From the IMG/VR virus record IMGVR_UViG_3300027852_000156, positions 1 to 26,453 of that record: DNA of 26,453 nt. One strand, 5' to 3'. The stretch's first letter is position 1. The number at the start of each line of letters is the position of its first letter. The notes under the pieces are model-generated. The model searched no databases, had not been told where the DNA came from, and was given only the letters and a program-made list of their open reading frames with translations. The position numbers and the translations under genes were made by a program. Origin of the DNA: a virus. Of the stretch, positions 7,457 to 21,908 are shown piece after piece.

Positions 7457-8998
7457 ATGGCTGCGGTAAATAAAATTGACTCCAACGTGGTGGGTCTCCG
7501 CTACTCGGTGGAGGTTTCTATTGGGACCCTTGCGGGCTCTCCGATCTGGCTCGAACTTGAGCCTAACTCGTTCAACGACTTCGGTGGGGAGTTAACGGCT
7601 CTCGCCCGTAACCCGATCAACCCCTCTCGCCAGCGGAAGAAAGGCTCTATTGTAGACCTCACTGCCTCTGGTTCGTGGGCCCAGGATATGACCCAAAGCA
7701 ACTTCCAAGAGTTGCTGCCATCCTTCATGTTCTCTGCTGCTGATCTAGCCGTACAATTCGGCGGGTCAGGTGAAGTGACCAACGTTGATGGTACTGCTGA
7801 CGAGTACGACGCAGCAGACAGCCTTGACGTCTTCGCGGTTGGCGATCTTATCTTTGCCAAAGGCTTCACAAATTCAGCGAACAATGGCCTGAAAGAGATC
7901 GACGGCTTGACCGCAGACACTAACATCTCAGTGGTTGAAACTATTGTTGACGAAACGCCGCCAGCTACTGCGACCCTCGAAAAGGTAGGTGTCCAAGCGG
8001 GCTCTGCCGACCTCGACGTTGACGCCTCCGGTTCGCTTCCGATCATTACGTCCTCGACCTTGGACTTCACGACCCTCAATCTATCTGCTGGAGACTGGTT
8101 CCATGTAGGCGGCGACCTTGCTGCTGACCAGTTCGCAACGGCTGCTAACAACGGTTGGAAGCGTATCCGCTCGGTAACGGCGAACGCAATCACAATCGAC
8201 AAGTCGGTCGCGGCGATGGTAACGGAGACCGGAACTGGTCTGACTGTCCGTCTCTTCGTTGGACGATCCCACAGAAACAAGACTGGTGCTGACATTGTCC
8301 GAACGTCTTACCAGTTTGAGCGTACCTTGGGTGCCCCTGACGACTCATTCCTGTCTCAAATTCAGTCTGAATATTTAACCGGCTCTGTAGGTAATACCCT
8401 GAGCGTTGACTTCTCTACGGCCTCCCTACTTACCGCCGAACTTTCTTTCCTATCCCTGGACGCTGAACAGCGCACTGGGGCGACTGGAGTGAAGTCAGGT
8501 ACTCGGCCCACTCTGGCCAGCGAGAGCGCCTTCAATACCTCATCGGACGTCTCCCGGATCAAGCTCTCCACAGTATCCGATACAGACGAAGCTCCGGTGG
8601 CGCTCTTCGCCTTTGTTGAAGAGTTTAGCCTTGAGGTTAACAACAATCTGACCCAAGAAAAAGCTATCGGCGTTCTCGGCTCATTTGACGTAACCGCAGG
8701 TACGTTTACCGTCAGCGGTAACATCACCGCCTTCTTCTCGGACGTGGCCGCAGTCTCTGCGGTTCGCAACAACGCGGACGTTACCTTGGACGCCATTATG
8801 GTTAAAGAGAACGCCGGTGTTGTTATCGACATACCTCTGTTGAGCCTGGGCGACGGGAGACCTAACGTGGAGCAAGATGCTGCAATCAAAATTCCGCTTA
8901 CTCTCGATGCGGCGACTGCCTCTTCAATCTCGACTGATATGGACCATACGCTGAGTCTAAACTTCTTTCAGTATCTTCCCGACGCAGCCGATATTTAA
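7457..8998 (+). CDS. Major tail tube protein with tandem inserted repeats
   Basis: 513 residues behind a strong AAGGAGG site, well above the usual 150-350 for tube proteins. Residues 1-92 (SNVVGLRYSVEVSIGTLAGS, LARNPINPSRQRKKGSIVDL) and about 275-513 (RTSYQFERTLGAP, then the strands to the end) resemble the phage tail tube family that includes Phage_tube_2. Residues about 95-270 hold two related units: VGDLIFAKGFTNSANNGLKE at 128-147 and AGDWFHVGGDLAADQFATAA followed by NNGWKRIRSV at 211-240. Each ends in a strand, and they probably project from the tube surface. A strong hairpin follows the gene, as expected for an abundant protein. The tube role rests on position and N-terminal similarity. 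Confidence 0.85.
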   Translation: MAAVNKIDSNVVGLRYSVEVSIGTLAGSPIWLELEPNSFNDFGGELTALARNPINPSRQRKKGSIVDLTASGSWAQDMTQSNFQELLPSFMFSAADLAVQFGGSGEVTNVDGTADEYDAADSLDVFAVGDLIFAKGFTNSANNGLKEIDGLTADTNISVVETIVDETPPATATLEKVGVQAGSADLDVDASGSLPIITSSTLDFTTLNLSAGDWFHVGGDLAADQFATAANNGWKRIRSVTANAITIDKSVAAMVTETGTGLTVRLFVGRSHRNKTGADIVRTSYQFERTLGAPDDSFLSQIQSEYLTGSVGNTLSVDFSTASLLTAELSFLSLDAEQRTGATGVKSGTRPTLASESAFNTSSDVSRIKLSTVSDTDEAPVALFAFVEEFSLEVNNNLTQEKAIGVLGSFDVTAGTFTVSGNITAFFSDVAAVSAVRNNADVTLDAIMVKENAGVVIDIPLLSLGDGRPNVEQDAAIKIPLTLDAATASSISTDMDHTLSLNFFQYLPDAADI

Positions 8999-9062: not shown

Positions 9063-9551
9063 ATGTACAAACAATTCAAAACCAACGCCAACCTGGAAAA
9101 GTCAGGCATCACGCTTGACTACGGACTTTTCCGTCTCAAGTGCGCCCGAGCTGGGGGAGCAAATATTAATTGGCAGAAGACGCTGGACGCCCTGTCTAAG
9201 CCCTACAAGCGTCAGATCGACGCCGAGACCTTGCCTGAAGCGAAGGGCCAAGAGCTTTTGCGCCAAGCCTTTTCTCGCTCTGTTGTATTGGGCTGGGAAG
9301 TCGCTGTTGACGATAAGGGTGATCCTATTCAAAACGAAGAGGACCTCCCGGAAGAAGACGCTGACCGGGTATGGGCCCCGGGTCTCCACTCTGAAGACGG
9401 GTCAATTGTGAAGTTCTCCGCCGAGGCTGTGGCTCAAGCGTTCAAGTACCTTCCTGACTTGTTCGCCGATATTCGGGCCCAGACCACGAAGTCTGACCTC
9501 TATAAAGAGGATATTCGGGAGGCGGAGGCGGGAAACTCGAAGCGGTCCTAA
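9063..9551 (+). CDS. Tail assembly chaperone, G-like short form
   Basis: 162 residues encoded directly after the tube gene and before the tape measure, the place of lambda gpG. The protein is acidic and helical (EAKGQELLRQAFSRSVVLGW, EEDLPEEDADRVWAPGLHS, AVAQAFKYLPDLFADIRAQT). GAGGAG lies about 8 bases before the ATG. A GGGAAAC slippery heptamer at 9530-9536, in the correct X XXY YYZ phase and 12 bases before the stop, lets some ribosomes continue into the T frame. The short form is expected to coat the tape measure during tail assembly and not remain in the virion. Confidence 0.88.
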   Translation: MYKQFKTNANLEKSGITLDYGLFRLKCARAGGANINWQKTLDALSKPYKRQIDAETLPEAKGQELLRQAFSRSVVLGWEVAVDDKGDPIQNEEDLPEEDADRVWAPGLHSEDGSIVKFSAEAVAQAFKYLPDLFADIRAQTTKSDLYKEDIREAEAGNSKRS

Positions 9552-9880
9552 TAGCATGGCTCAACCGGTCCCCAGCTGATCAACGAATCATCCGTCAGTG
9601 TATGATGGAGGGGACCGACTTGCCACCACGGCTCGCCAATACGCCGGATTTGAATATGGGGAACCAGCTCTTCATGAGCGCGTTCTTCGAATTGAATTCA
9701 GGGCGAGCCTTTGGGCTTGAACAAGGACCGATACCGTGGCGCGATATCCACGACTGGTGCGAACTCTACGGGATAGAGGAAGACCAAAAAGACGACGTGA
9801 TGTACCATGTAAGGACTATGGATAACCGGTACTTGAAAGAGTGTTCGGCGAAAGCGAAAAGGGATAAGGGGAATGGCTAA
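9063..9880 (+). CDS. Tail assembly chaperone, G-T frameshift fusion
   Basis: This product is read from 9063 to 9536, then, after a -1 shift, from 9536 to 9880, giving 272 residues. The T frame is open from 9506 and needs no start of its own. Just after the shift point it encodes LEAVLIAWLNRSPADQRIIR, followed by QCMMEGTDLPPRLANTPDLN and IPWRDIHDWCELYGIEEDQK, typical of tail chaperone T domains. In lambda, gpGT bridges gpG-coated tape measure and tube subunits; the same job is inferred here. An ATG at 9602 could start a T-only protein of 92 residues, but it lacks a good ribosome binding site and would drop the first T helix. Confidence 0.85.
9517..9536 (+). promoter_or_regulatory. Programmed -1 frameshift site
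   Basis: GGGAAAC at 9530-9536 is read in frame 0 as GGA-AAC after a G and allows both tRNAs to re-pair one base back on GGG-AAA. Two Shine-Dalgarno-like runs, GGGAGG (9517-9522) and CGGAGG (9523-9528), lie just upstream. An upstream SD at similar distance stimulates -1 shifting in E. coli dnaX. I see no convincing downstream pseudoknot or stable stem. Confidence 0.85.
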
Positions 9881-10310
9881 CAGTCTGGGAGGGTTCTCGC
9901 GACGTATTCGATCCCTCGCCGACCGTGCCCCTCGCAATGCGGCTCGGATCGTCCGGGAAGCCGCGCTAGCTATCGACCAAGCCGTCGTCCTTGCTACTCC
10001 AGTAGATACCGGACGGGCGCGATCCAACTGGATTGTCTCCTCGGGGTTTGCTAATACTCGTGAAACTGAGGCTTACTCCCCTGGGGATGGACTTGGAAAA
10101 GGAGAGGGCGCAAACGCTGCGGCCGCAATCGCTCAAGGCAAGGCGGCAATTAGCCGCGCAAGAGACGGTCAAGATATTTACATTCAAAACAATCTCCCTT
10201 ATATTTCGATACTGAACCAAGGATCGTCTGCGCAAGCGCCATCAAATTTCGTAGAGAAGGCAGCAATCGCAGGTTCCCGCGCAGTCCGAAAAGGGGGCAT
10301 TCTTAAATGA
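9873..10310 (+). CDS. HK97 gp10-like tail completion/minor tail protein
   Basis: 145 residues with a basic N-terminal helix, then AALAIDQAVVLATPVDTGRA and RSNW. TPVDTGxxxxxW is the hallmark of the HK97 gp10-like / lambda gpZ family of tail completion proteins. The C-terminal QNNLPYISILNQGSSAQAPS, then FVEKA also fits (Y...LE/N.G....P..F...A). These proteins usually act at the head-proximal end of the tail. Here the gene sits between the chaperone and tape measure genes and not in its more common place before the tail terminator. It overlaps the T frame by 8 bases and the tape measure start as ATGA. Confidence 0.8.
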   Translation: MANSLGGFSRRIRSLADRAPRNAARIVREAALAIDQAVVLATPVDTGRARSNWIVSSGFANTRETEAYSPGDGLGKGEGANAAAAIAQGKAAISRARDGQDIYIQNNLPYISILNQGSSAQAPSNFVEKAAIAGSRAVRKGGILK

Positions 10311-12661
10311 GTACAGAACGCATCCAGATTATCGTATCTGAGCGCGGCTCTCGGACTGTCCGGCGTAATATCCGGGGCATAGGGGATGACGCGCAAAGAT
10401 CGCATGGCGCGGTGACGCTCCTCAACCGCGCCATGCGCCTGTTGGGAGGTGGTCTCGCCGTTCGCGAAATCGCTCGCCTCTCTGACGCAGCAACGATCCT
10501 ACAGAACAAAATTAAGATCGCTGAGTCCTCAGTTGGTCGAATTGATGGAGCCTTCGAGCGTCTTGTTGGGATATCGAATGAAGCCCGGGTCTCAGTTGAC
10601 GACTTAGGTCAGGTATTCTTGCGTGCGTCTATCGCCTCTAAGGAGCTAGGGGCCTCCCAAGAGGACTTGTTCAACTTCGTAGACACCGTTGCGAAGGGTC
10701 TAGCGACCCAGGGCTCGGCAGCAAACGAAGCCCGAGGCGCTCTGACTCAGTTGGGGCAATCTCTCGGTTCAGGGATCGTCCGGGCAGAAGAATTCAACTC
10801 GATCCTTGAGGGTGCGTTTCCAATTGCCCAAGCCGCCGCCAATGGGATCGACGCAGCAGGAGGATCGGTTGCTAAGCTGAGACAATTGGTCGTAGCTGGA
10901 GCGATCACCTCGGACGAGTTCTTCCGAGGCATCCTGTCTCAACAGGATGCTATAGCCGAAGTCTTTGCGAAGACGAACCCAACTATCGGGCAGTCGTTCC
11001 AGGTTCTTCGAAACAACTTCATACAACTCATCAAGGACTTCAACGAGGGAACTGGTGCTGCAGGTATTATAGCCAAGGCGATCCTCGGAGTTGCGACCAG
11101 CCTCGACCTTATCGTCCGAGCCGCAGCGTTGGCTGGTGCTGCTTTGGCTTTAGCCTTTGCTCGCCGCAAGGCCCTCCTAGTAACGTCCTACGTTCAACAG
11201 GTAATCGCTCTCGAACTAGCCCTTGGGGCAACGTCTGTCCGAGCAGCAGCCTTCGGAGGGGTATTGAAGACTGTCTCCAGCGTCTTCAGAGGTTTCCTCA
11301 AGCTGCTAGGGGCTACTCCCCTGGGTCGTCTGATCAATCTTCTGATCCTAGCCGGGACAGCTCTGTTTACCTTCAAGGACAAACTTGGTGGCGTCGGAAA
11401 AGCCTTTCAACGCTTCTTAGATATCGGCCAAGCAACGTTCCAGATCATAGGGGAAAAGGCTGCTGCCTTTGGAAGCTTCATAAGCGACAAGATAGGACCC
11501 GTTATTTCATCCATAGGGGGCTTCTTCGCCGATCTGGTCGGCCCTATAGCCGAGGTATGGTCCGCAACCGTATCTTTCCTCAAGAACGCCGTAAATAAGA
11601 AGATCGGTATCGTTGTAGGCTTCGTTAAGGCGGCGGGCTTGATCTTCAAGCAAGGTCTTCCTGCGGGTTTGAAAGCAGCTGGTGCCCTCGCTGTGAACGG
11701 TTTGGTTGCTATCGTAGAGAAAGGCTTGAACGCTATAACAGGAGGCATCAAAGGCTTTCTCGGCGGGATCGACGCTCTTACTGGTGGCTCACTGGCGTCA
11801 AAAATCGGCAATGTAGACCTGTCCGGATTTAAGATTCAAGTGGGCGGAGCCGCAGGAGAAGTTGCAGCAGAGGTGGCTGGAGCCTTCTCTGACGCCTTAG
11901 GGGCGGACTACATTGGCTCGGTCGTCGATCCTATCCTCAAGCGAGCTGATCAGATTGACGCTGACCGGAATGCTAAAAACTTCGATAGCGAGGAGGCTGA
12001 CCCTACGACGACGATCAATAGTGTTGGCGACGCTGCTACCGGGAACCTAAAGAAGGTTAAAGAGGCTGCAGATGAGGTCGAAAATACTTTCAAAGGTGGC
12101 CTTAAAGCAGCCTTTGAGCAGTTGGCAGGTCAGACTGAGAAGCTCGGTGAGAACGTTCGAGACTTTGTTGTGGGGGCTTTTGACAGCCTCTCAGATTCAA
12201 TCGTCGAGTTCGCCAAGACCGGTAAATTCAACATCAGAGAGTTCTTCTCAGACCTCTTCGCCCAACTTCTGAAGCTCGCGACCAACCAGCTGTTTGCTCA
12301 GCTATTCAAAGGCGGTGGTCTGTCCTCCCTGTTCGGCGGCGGCGGTGGCGGCGGTATCGGGGGCTTGCTTGGGTTTAAGACCGGCGGGGAGGCTATGGTT
12401 GCGGGCCAAGGCGGTCCTGATAGCCAGCTAGTGGCCTTCAAGGCTACTCCCGGGGAGCGGGTCTCCATTGAAACCCCTAGCCAGCAGTCTAAGTCGGACG
12501 CTCCGGCCCAGGTCGTACAACAGGCTCCTCAGACGAACGTCGCTGTGGTTATCTCTCCCGCAGATATTGCCGGAGCCCTCGGAGGGTCCGAAGGCGATAC
12601 AGCAATCGTTCGAGGTATTGAACGAAACGCCCGAGCGATCCGCTCTGTACTGGGGGCGTAA
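10307..12661 (+). CDS. Tape measure protein
   Basis: 784 residues, the typical longest tail-module gene after the chaperones. Residues about 70-240 match the tape-measure N-terminal domain (QGSAANEARGALTQLGQSLG, GIVRAEEFNSILEGAFPIAQ, TNPTIGQSFQVLRNNFIQLI). Hydrophobic segments follow at about 268-286 and 342-356, then a long helical central region. A glycine run at about 677-688 precedes the conserved C-terminus GFKTGGEAMVAGQGGPDSQL, then VAFKATPGERVSIETP. The protein sets tail length and may enter the host envelope during DNA delivery. At roughly 0.15 nm per residue, the length predicts a tail near 115-120 nm (inference). No lytic transglycosylase motif is seen. Confidence 0.92.
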   Translation: MSTERIQIIVSERGSRTVRRNIRGIGDDAQRSHGAVTLLNRAMRLLGGGLAVREIARLSDAATILQNKIKIAESSVGRIDGAFERLVGISNEARVSVDDLGQVFLRASIASKELGASQEDLFNFVDTVAKGLATQGSAANEARGALTQLGQSLGSGIVRAEEFNSILEGAFPIAQAAANGIDAAGGSVAKLRQLVVAGAITSDEFFRGILSQQDAIAEVFAKTNPTIGQSFQVLRNNFIQLIKDFNEGTGAAGIIAKAILGVATSLDLIVRAAALAGAALALAFARRKALLVTSYVQQVIALELALGATSVRAAAFGGVLKTVSSVFRGFLKLLGATPLGRLINLLILAGTALFTFKDKLGGVGKAFQRFLDIGQATFQIIGEKAAAFGSFISDKIGPVISSIGGFFADLVGPIAEVWSATVSFLKNAVNKKIGIVVGFVKAAGLIFKQGLPAGLKAAGALAVNGLVAIVEKGLNAITGGIKGFLGGIDALTGGSLASKIGNVDLSGFKIQVGGAAGEVAAEVAGAFSDALGADYIGSVVDPILKRADQIDADRNAKNFDSEEADPTTTINSVGDAATGNLKKVKEAADEVENTFKGGLKAAFEQLAGQTEKLGENVRDFVVGAFDSLSDSIVEFAKTGKFNIREFFSDLFAQLLKLATNQLFAQLFKGGGLSSLFGGGGGGGIGGLLGFKTGGEAMVAGQGGPDSQLVAFKATPGERVSIETPSQQSKSDAPAQVVQQAPQTNVAVVISPADIAGALGGSEGDTAIVRGIERNARAIRSVLGA

Positions 12662-19177: not shown

Positions 19178-19419
19178 CAGAGATAACGCAAAAACAGCTA
19201 GACCTTCGCTTCTCGAACCGTCGCAAAATGGCTTGGCGCTCGTTCTACTATATTGTGGTGTTTTCGTCCCTTCTAGTAGGGTACGCGTTGGGCTCTGATG
19301 AAGCCGCAGCTCGGGTTGCTCTTGTCCAGTGGATTGTATTACCCGTCGGCGGAATGCTGACGTCAATAGTTCTTGCGTACTTCGGCGTGAGCGCCTACGA
19401 GCAAGGGAAAATGAAATGA
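19174..19419 (+). CDS. Holin candidate, two transmembrane segments
   Basis: 81 residues from GTG 19174, overlapping the fibre stop as GTGA. After a charged N-terminus (KQLDLRFSNRRKMAW), two hydrophobic segments appear at about residues 23-40 (SFYYIVVFSSLLVGYALG) and 48-70 (VALVQWIVLPVGGMLTSIVL). The small size, two membrane passes and position at the head of the lysis cassette fit a class II-type holin, which would form membrane lesions that trigger lysis. It could equally be a helper or antiholin, since a second holin-like gene lies downstream. Confidence 0.65.
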   Translation: MTEITQKQLDLRFSNRRKMAWRSFYYIVVFSSLLVGYALGSDEAAARVALVQWIVLPVGGMLTSIVLAYFGVSAYEQGKMK

Positions 19420-19928
19420 TAACTGCGATCCTAGAAAGCCTCTCCTTTGGTCTCCTTTGGGACCTCCTCCCCTTGTTGGGGTTTGGCCCTGTTGGGATTG
19501 GAGTTTGGCTCCTCAAGAAATATACCCAACTACCAATGAAGTTGCTAGTCTGGGGCGGGGCTCTACTTGCTGTCCTCCTCCTCTTCTGGGCTTTCGACCG
19601 TCAACGAGATCAGATCAACGACCTCCGGGCAGAGCGAGAGCGTCTTATTGTTGCAGTAAAAACTCAGACGCTTACAATTGACTATTTGGAGCAAGAAGCT
19701 ATAAGATGGGAAACAGCTTTGATTGCGGCGGAAGCCGTTCTAAGGGAACAAGAATTGATCGCCCAGCGCTCCGGGCACGAAATGGAGAACCTGAACGATG
19801 CTCTTGAGAAACTCAACGACGTACTCGAGCCCGAAGCTGCTGCTGATCGCGCTAACGTTATCTTTGGTGACGCTGCTCGCCGGTTGCGGTGCTCCGCAGG
19901 AGCTGGTGGTGAAGACTGTCCCGACTGA
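19416..19928 (+). CDS. Inner-membrane spanin (Rz-like)
   Basis: 170 residues from ATG 19416, overlapping the previous stop as ATGA. There are hydrophobic stretches at about 8-33 and 43-60, then a long charged coiled-coil (DRQRDQINDLRAERERLIVA at 61-80, through about 136). The outer-spanin gene begins inside its 3' end. The inner spanin spans the periplasm through its coiled coil and, with the lipoprotein partner, disrupts or fuses the outer membrane. Classic Rz has only one N-terminal membrane segment; the second one here, with KK and MK in the loop between, implies N-out, C-periplasmic topology. A fused holin-like segment is possible. Confidence 0.82.
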   Translation: MITAILESLSFGLLWDLLPLLGFGPVGIGVWLLKKYTQLPMKLLVWGGALLAVLLLFWAFDRQRDQINDLRAERERLIVAVKTQTLTIDYLEQEAIRWETALIAAEAVLREQELIAQRSGHEMENLNDALEKLNDVLEPEAAADRANVIFGDAARRLRCSAGAGGEDCPD

Positions 19929-20160
19929 GGCTCCAACCGCGACCGTCGTCCTGATACCTGTACCCGCCGGAATTAAAACTGAGCCACCAACTGAATGGAA
20001 GGTTGTTAATACTCCGGAAGGTAAATTCTACGCCATTACGTCTGATCAGTACGAGCAATTGCTCATATGGTTGGCTGACACTACTCGATACGTCCGAGAG
20101 GCGTCCCTTCAGATCGAATACTACCGCAACGGTATTGAAGACGTGAGGTCTGCTGAGTAA
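19798..20160 (+). CDS. Outer-membrane spanin lipoprotein (Rz1-like)
   Basis: 120 residues. The N-terminus is a clear lipoprotein signal: basic residues at 4 and 13, hydrophobic core LLLIALTLSLVTLLAGC, lipobox LLAGC with Cys30 as the predicted lipidated residue. The mature part starts with a proline-rich stretch (EAPTATVVLIPVPAG). The gene starts 131 bases before the end of the inner-spanin gene in another frame, the overlapped arrangement of many Rz/Rz1 pairs. GGAG is 10 bases upstream of the ATG. It is expected at the inner leaflet of the outer membrane, bound to the inner spanin across the periplasm. At about 91 mature residues it is larger than lambda Rz1. Confidence 0.88.
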   Translation: MLLRNSTTYSSPKLLLIALTLSLVTLLAGCGAPQELVVKTVPTEAPTATVVLIPVPAGIKTEPPTEWKVVNTPEGKFYAITSDQYEQLLIWLADTTRYVREASLQIEYYRNGIEDVRSAE

Positions 20161-20909: not shown

Positions 20910-21908
20910 ATGAGAACGACCCCTAGCGTAACCCTATGGGCCGAGGTCGCCGAGACCCTCGGTTGCGAGATCGCTGCCGTAAAGGCCGTTTTTGAAGTCG
21001 AGGCAGCAGGGAAATTTTACAACTCAAACGGATCGCTGGTGCGCCGCTTTGAGCCCCACCACTTCCCTAAGAAGTATTGGGCTCAGTTAGGGTTCAACCC
21101 AGGCTCCGGTTCTGCTTGGCGGAGGTCCCTGAAGGTATCGACCTCCGCACGCCAACGTATGTTCGACGTTGCCGAGAGCATCGACGTGGAAGCCGCCTAT
21201 CGGGCTTGCTCCTGGGGTGCTCCGCAGATAATGGGGTTCAATTACGAAATTGCTGGTTACGATAGCGCTCGCGCTATGGTCTCGGCCTTCGAAGAGAGCG
21301 CGGATAACCAAGTCCTCGGCTTCGTTGGCTTCGTAGTGACCGAGGAGCTGGATACGTTCCTCCGCTCCCACGACTGGCTGTCCTTCGCATCCCGTTACAA
21401 CGGAACCGGCCAAGCGCCAGTCTACGCAGCTAAAATCGAGAGTGCCTATCGTCGTCAGTCTGGTGGACTTCGCTCAACCACTGTTCTCCGCCTAGGCTCC
21501 CGAGGAAACGCCGTGGAGCAGCTTCAAACTAACCTCGCCACCCTCGGGTTTATTCCTGAGGACGGAATTGACGGACACTTCGGTCAGGAGACCTGGAACG
21601 GGGTTCGCCAGTTTCAAGCCGCGAACGACCTCACTGTTGACGGCATAGCTGGTAATACAACTCTGGCTGCTCTGGCGAGGAAGCCAGAAGTAAAAGAGGT
21701 CGTTCCCGAGAAAGAGATGCAGAAAACTATTGGTGATCTCAATATCGACCGGGTTGCTAAGATCGGCGGGTCAGTCCTCGGCGGGGGCGGAGTTGCAGGG
21801 GTTGTCTCCGGATTAGGAGAAACTTCCCAGACGATCCTAGTCGGGGGCGGGGTAGCCCTCGCTGTAATAGTTGCCCTAGCAGTGATCATTCCGAGGCTGA
21901 AGTCATGA
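20910..21908 (+). CDS. Endolysin: N-acetylmuramidase with peptidoglycan-binding domain and C-terminal membrane segments
   Basis: 332 residues. Residues about 10-185 match the N-acetylmuramidase family (VKAVFEVEAAGKFYNSNGSL, RRFEPHHF, CSWGAPQIMGFNYEIAGY); Glu29/Glu31 in FEVEA are candidates for the catalytic acid. Residues about 192-257 are a PG_binding_1 repeat (LRLGSRGNAVEQLQTNLATL, DGIDGHFGQETWNGVRQFQA). The C-terminus adds a Gly-rich hydrophobic stretch at 286-302 and a clear membrane segment at 309-327 (ILVGGGVALAVIVALAVIIP) ending in RLKS. The enzyme would cleave the glycan backbone at host lysis. A C-terminal anchor is unusual for an endolysin and suggests membrane tethering before holin triggering. 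Confidence 0.9.
   Translation: MRTTPSVTLWAEVAETLGCEIAAVKAVFEVEAAGKFYNSNGSLVRRFEPHHFPKKYWAQLGFNPGSGSAWRRSLKVSTSARQRMFDVAESIDVEAAYRACSWGAPQIMGFNYEIAGYDSARAMVSAFEESADNQVLGFVGFVVTEELDTFLRSHDWLSFASRYNGTGQAPVYAAKIESAYRRQSGGLRSTTVLRLGSRGNAVEQLQTNLATLGFIPEDGIDGHFGQETWNGVRQFQAANDLTVDGIAGNTTLAALARKPEVKEVVPEKEMQKTIGDLNIDRVAKIGGSVLGGGGVAGVVSGLGETSQTILVGGGVALAVIVALAVIIPRLKS

Follow-up and report, generated by a model that had tools for sequence, protein, structure and literature searches.

The -1 frameshift that links the tail assembly chaperone genes G and T (the G/G-T arrangement) was reportedly described by Xu, Hendrix and Duda in 2004 for lambda and most long-tailed phages; the lambda slippery heptamer is GGGAAAG. 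Shifting in lambda is low-level, at 30:1 (PMC5009743). For the gp18/gp19 genes of Burkholderia phage KL1, a -1 shift at GGGAAAC was already predicted in 2012, and a stem-loop was proposed (PMC3483164). E. coli dnaX has a full three-part layout, with an upstream Shine-Dalgarno (SD)-like element, a slippery heptamer (A AAA AAG) and a downstream stem-loop, the first two of which we read from its sequence as AGGGAG-10 nt-AAAAAAG. In transposase frameshifts of the IS3/IS911 type, weak SD-like tetramers 6-17 nt upstream stimulate -1 shifting, and SD stimulators have been estimated in 56% of IS elements (PMC4066793, PMC5009743).

The locus that we compare with these systems lies in a window (the whole stretch of DNA analyzed, a virus record of 26,453 bases) that comprises the structural and lysis region of a siphovirus genome. 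Features in and around its chaperone genes are:

7457-8998, + strand: tail tube gene (PF18906), upstream of G
9063-9551, + strand: gene G, tail assembly chaperone, frame 0, with its ATG at 9063, 162 aa (PHROG 313, E 1.6e-18)
9517-9522, + strand: SD-like run 1, GGGAGG, with a 7-nt spacer to the heptamer; anti-SD duplex energy -10.3, assuming the standard anti-SD
9523-9528, + strand: SD-like run 2, CGGAGG, with a 1-nt spacer to the heptamer
9530-9536, + strand: slippery heptamer G GGA AAC, in X XXY YYZ phase
9536-9880, + strand: T domain, -1 frame (PF23812 Phage_TAC_18, E 3.1e-19)
9543-9549, + strand: CGGTCCT, remnant 5' arm of a stem-loop of the family, its usual partner missing
9549-9551, + strand: frame-0 stop TAA, 12 nt past the heptamer
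9566-9617, + strand: distal hairpin inside T, with an 8-bp G+C-rich helix CGGTCCCC/GGGGACCG
9873-10310, + strand: HK97-gp10-like neck/tail-completion gene, between T and the tape measure gene
10307-12661, + strand: tape measure gene (PF20155)

The first-pass annotation of this DNA had placed both runs, the heptamer and the stop at their correct coordinates, and the phase of GGGAAAC and its 12-nt distance from the frame-0 stop can be read directly at the end of G (...GAG GCG GGA AAC TCG AAG CGG TCC TAA). Its assignment of a T domain to the -1 frame, which has no stop over 9506-9880 (124 aa), was borne out by the Pfam match listed above, and the same frame matches PHROG 3817 'tail chaperonin' (5e-29). 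The chaperone pair sits between the tail tube and tape measure genes, with T overlapping G in the -1 frame and lacking a start of its own. Elsewhere on the + strand the window carries an overlapping Rz-like/Rz1-like spanin pair at 19329-20160, made up of an Rz-like gene at 19329-19928 (PHROG 214, E 3e-4) and an Rz1-like lipoprotein gene at 19798-20160 (PHROG 812, E 7e-14) that starts inside it, and an endolysin gene at 20910-21908 whose product combines an N-acetylmuramidase domain (PF11860) with a peptidoglycan-binding domain (PF01471) and has a hydrophobic stretch at its C-terminus.

Gene order, the two-frame chaperone, an X XXY YYZ heptamer near the G end and a T that comes only as a fusion are all as in the lambda-type system; the heptamer itself differs, and the window has an SD-like element at the spacing that we find below to be under selection, whereas the papers searched describe none for G-T genes. 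KL1 shares with the window its protein families, GGGAAAC, the predicted -1 shift and an intervening gene before the tape measure gene, but in KL1 the stop follows the heptamer directly, a stem-loop was proposed (PMC3483164), and there is no strong SD-like run. The likeness to dnaX that had been drawn is a loose one: both have an SD-like element upstream of a slippery heptamer, but dnaX has a 10-nt spacer (against 7 nt for run 1), another heptamer (A AAA AAG against G GGA AAC), a stem-loop, which the window lacks at the usual place, and another gene and outcome. Most relatives of the window, which have the downstream stem-loop too, come closer to the dnaX layout. The IS3/IS911 cases concern transposase rather than tail chaperone genes.

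As a word, GGGAAAC is at chance level (5 in the window against 4.7 expected); the heptamer rises above chance by its phase, place and conservation. All 27 diverse G-related phage records, found via G with a best identity of 40% (tblastn), have GGGAAAC or AAAAAAC in phase at the G end. Profile searches of phage records plus IMG/VR and genome loci, with profiles made from sub-alignments because 25 proteins together were too diverse to align, yielded two sets, in which a standard heptamer lies in phase within the G/T overlap at 190 of 190 and 267 of 272 loci. T is in the -1 frame in all 462 loci having both genes, and 457 of them combine this with the heptamer. Depositors had annotated a joined, frameshifted G-T gene in five relatives (Sonora, RcRudolph, Loki, RcMotherGoose and KL1). 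A -1 frameshift at the G/T junction is, on this conservation, as good as certain to occur; as the first-pass annotation had acknowledged, it is known biology, with the KL1 site in print (PMC3483164), and the window is an ordinary added case of the G/G-T kind.

Several variations on this site were seen among the relatives. In about four fifths of them (100 of 127 and 72 of 91 in the two sets described below) the stop abuts the heptamer (X XXY YYZ-stop), which may by itself influence shifting; the 12 nt in the window is a minority arrangement. Five loci (L353, L354, L381, L451 and L462) have T in the -1 frame without a standard heptamer at the G end, and are possible variant shift sites; their non-standard ends include GCAAAAGAC-TGA, GCCCAGGAC-TGA and TCAAAAACC-TAG, and L462 has CCCAAAG in phase. 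In phage YuA (L011) the RefSeq record has no T annotation between gp67 and gp68, with a promoter feature over part of the T frame, while several other records annotate T as a separate gene from an internal start.

The newer proposal of the first-pass annotation was that runs 1 and 2 act as tandem SD-like stimulators. Taken alone, the runs of the window are not improbable beyond codon use. The window contains 24 copies of GGGAGG, where 20.7 are expected; with the peptide fixed and codons used as the phage uses them, the probability is 0.21 for GGAGG at the run position and 0.022 for the tandem runs; and when the codons of G are permuted synonymously, the anti-SD energy of run 1 is reached in 25% of cases. 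Single-protein searches for related loci returned only one near-identical contig, which agrees with the window at every called base; because the other nearest relatives are so distant (tree distance about 1.5 substitutions per site), conservation of the exact runs can be assessed in that contig only. The shift might be real while the runs are only the way in which a G+C-rich phage encodes R-E-A-E-A, with the heptamer by itself giving the low level of shifting needed. This fits with conservation of the R-E and E-A positions as amino acids, with the two codon-use probabilities, with the low level of G-T shifting (30:1 in lambda, PMC5009743) and with the retention of the heptamer by hairpin-poor relatives that have no strong SD. 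We regard it as possible, though it does not account for a family-wide, position-specific synonymous excess of GGA/AGG that was reproduced in a hold-out set and is absent elsewhere in G.

That excess was measured in a discovery set of 127 non-redundant members and a hold-out set of 91 members sharing no more than 80% identity with it; pooled analysis took in 217 non-redundant relatives, 216 of them in the position counts. SD-like tetramers lie 6-17 nt upstream of the heptamer in 62% of the 127 discovery members, against 52% under codon permutation (0/200). In this set they are enriched at spacers of 4-11 and depleted at 0-2 and 16-23, and a search across the rest of G found no enrichment. The hold-out set repeated the profile, with z of -4.85 at spacers 5-9, 4.8 for codon -4 ending in G, and -4.1 at codon -2. 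Synonymous choice favors GGA or AGG 6-14 nt upstream and avoids the directly adjacent place: 6-nt segments ending 6-9 nt upstream have an excess of GGA/AGG (at 6 nt, 176 of 216 members against 127.5 expected), and such triplets are scarce at 0 nt (23 against 50.3), 1 nt (25 of 216 against 55.8) and 2 nt (19 against 48.1). Other stretches of G were neutral or depleted.

Energy-based enrichment failed its control, in that scrambled anti-SD targets scored as high as the anti-SD or higher, and for this reason we relied on triplet and position tests. In a likelihood test that compares all synonymous variants, GGA ranked top of the 64 triplets by gain (13.1 in discovery, 12.4 in hold-out). The combined GGA/AGG feature gained 22.1 and 21.0 log units, respectively; it and GGA/GAGG were picked after the pooled 4-mer list had been seen, so that discovery and hold-out are cleanly separated in the position test but only partly in the selection of triplets. 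The G-rich controls GGC/GCGG (3.1 and 1.4) and GGT/GTGG (0.0 and 0.5) gained little. The strong form GGAGG was not favored (gains of 0.0 and 0.6), and G before GAA was preferred over G before GAG. The signature persisted when clusters at 60, 50 and 45% identity were each reduced to a single member, and was independent of heptamer type (both), hairpin presence and downstream TCC. It looks as though selection retains an SD-like element that is weak and properly spaced and works against any competitor adjoining the site; since GGAGG is not enriched it is a weak element that selection would favor, and the element of the window is a strong one. In NP1 (L006) and Bordetella phage MW2 (L013) a strong GGAGGTG was seen whose end lies about 14 nt upstream of the heptamer, near the classic dnaX-like spacing, and SD stimulation would be better studied in these two than in the window.

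A preference for G at codons -3 and -4 could instead reflect some other constraint on the mRNA, such as pairing with a downstream arm or codon context, with no part for the anti-SD. The equally good energies of scrambled targets, the neutrality of GGAGG and the preference for G before GAA over GAG all suit such a constraint. We nonetheless find it somewhat unlikely: GGA and AGG are singled out against other G-rich triplets, the favored spacing is that of published -1 SD stimulators, and the avoided place is a known attenuating one. Pairing of upstream GGA with a TCC-containing downstream arm was rejected as the cause, the signal being equally strong where that arm has no TCC.

Both kinds of place are occupied in the window. 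Run 1, at 7 nt, lies closer than the 9-14 nt range, which makes its spacing borderline to acceptable, and stands where the family favors GGA/AGG; the evolutionary trace of an SD-like element is found at the family level and is not significant in the window alone. A stimulatory SD-like element upstream is to this extent plausible, and run 1 may well stimulate the shift. Run 2 stands 1 nt from the heptamer, where the family avoids these triplets (25 against 55.8); an SD adjoining the E site attenuates -1 shifting (PMC6321510), and a similarly short SD spacing, of 3 nt, promotes +1 shifting (PMC5009743). Tandem stimulation is thus not supported: run 2 is hardly likely to stimulate the shift, and is probably neutral or counter-productive.

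It had also been claimed that no good downstream structure is visible and that the shift may be driven from upstream. The first part is right for the window and untypical of its family. Most relatives have a stem-loop starting about 8 nt past the heptamer (GGTCCTGCTCTA-loop-TGGAGCAGGGCC and variants), with a mean z of -1.74 against codon permutation in 126 members, while control stretches within T go from -1.2 to +0.1 with growing distance; in 90 hold-out members the mean is -2.0, against -0.27 for the control stretch. Covariation in the stem is mixed, the test being limited by codon conservation: a few of the 12 pairs exceed partner shuffles at z >=3.4, and CAA-GGA coupling has P 0.02. A stem-loop a few nucleotides past the heptamer, the dnaX-type feature, is thus present in the family and was not found in the window, where the canonical one was sought at its usual place and scored z +2.9, the weakest of 215 members. 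The 64-nt local fold of the window has z = +1.4, its first 50-70 nt (including +1..+70) fold worse than all 200 codon permutations, and the peptide of T is different at the place expected for the 3' arm.

Structure further along could still drive the shift in the window. The remnant CGGTCCT arm at 9543-9549 could form a 7-bp helix, beginning 6 nt past the heptamer, with GGGACCG at 9611-9617, or the distal hairpin at 9566-9617 could act; a 104-nt fold that includes this hairpin reaches -35.6 kcal/mol (z -2.0), and the +1..+80 fold is stabler than 97.5% of codon permutations (P 0.025). These helices compete for one 3' arm, and the minimum-energy fold picks the distal one (spanning +30 to +81), which begins 29 nt past the heptamer; moreover, significance is marginal and varies with the length chosen, and no relative is close enough for a covariation test. 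We consider downstream driving unlikely, and a role for the distal hairpin doubtful. Driving from upstream instead of downstream is possible in the phage of the window; it is not a family rule. Most relatives keep the stem-loop, hairpin-poor ones were searched for stronger SD-like elements and had none, and across the family SD strength shows no trade-off with hairpin stability (rho -0.04 to -0.09, G+C removed).

That the runs serve instead as a ribosome-binding site from which T is initiated separately is suggested by GGAGG-type sequences upstream of the T frame, but is highly improbable, and an independent start was rejected, since a search upstream of 9602, about 70 nt past the runs, found no in-frame ATG, GTG or TTG, the conserved part of T begins upstream of 9602, and the conservation of the heptamer would be left unexplained.

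The reading that we prefer, and consider likely as a whole, is a G/G-T -1 shift in which run 1 stimulates modestly, run 2 has no effect or inhibits, and the stem-loop has been lost; the slip itself, pairing with the anti-SD and what either run does are our inferences from the sequences. Most ribosomes would read G through to the TAA at 9549-9551 and make the 162-aa product. In a minority, the peptidyl- and aminoacyl-tRNAs on GGA AAC would slip back onto GGG AAA, and these ribosomes would continue in the -1 frame to give a G-T fusion of 158 + 114 = 272 aa. Its junction would read ...EAEAGN-LEAVLIAW..., with tryptic junction peptide EAEAGNLEAVLIAWLNR, or ...EAGK... if the slip came before A-site decoding, and the fusion would link tape measure and tail tube in assembly. 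GGGAGG, about 7 nt upstream, would pair with the anti-SD during elongation and raise shifting to a modest extent, while run 2 would be a by-product of the REAEA codons, neutral or slightly inhibitory. With the family stem-loop lost here, shifting probably depends more on the upstream element and heptamer than it does in relatives.

For the family as a whole we consider it possible, if less likely than not, that G-T frameshifts use a three-part dnaX-like cassette, in which a weak GGA/AGG is selected 6-14 nt upstream and excluded next to the site, and that in the window, where the stem-loop is gone, the level of shifting would be set mainly from upstream through the anti-SD; we found no description of such a cassette for G-T frameshifts in the papers searched. 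G-T frameshifting is among the commonest recoding events in nature, but many sites have no obvious downstream structure, which leaves the control of its level poorly understood. The site of the window has an SD-like run and is without the family stem-loop, amid more than 200 relatives with upstream and downstream synonymous signatures, and together they make the division of work between the two stimulators directly testable.
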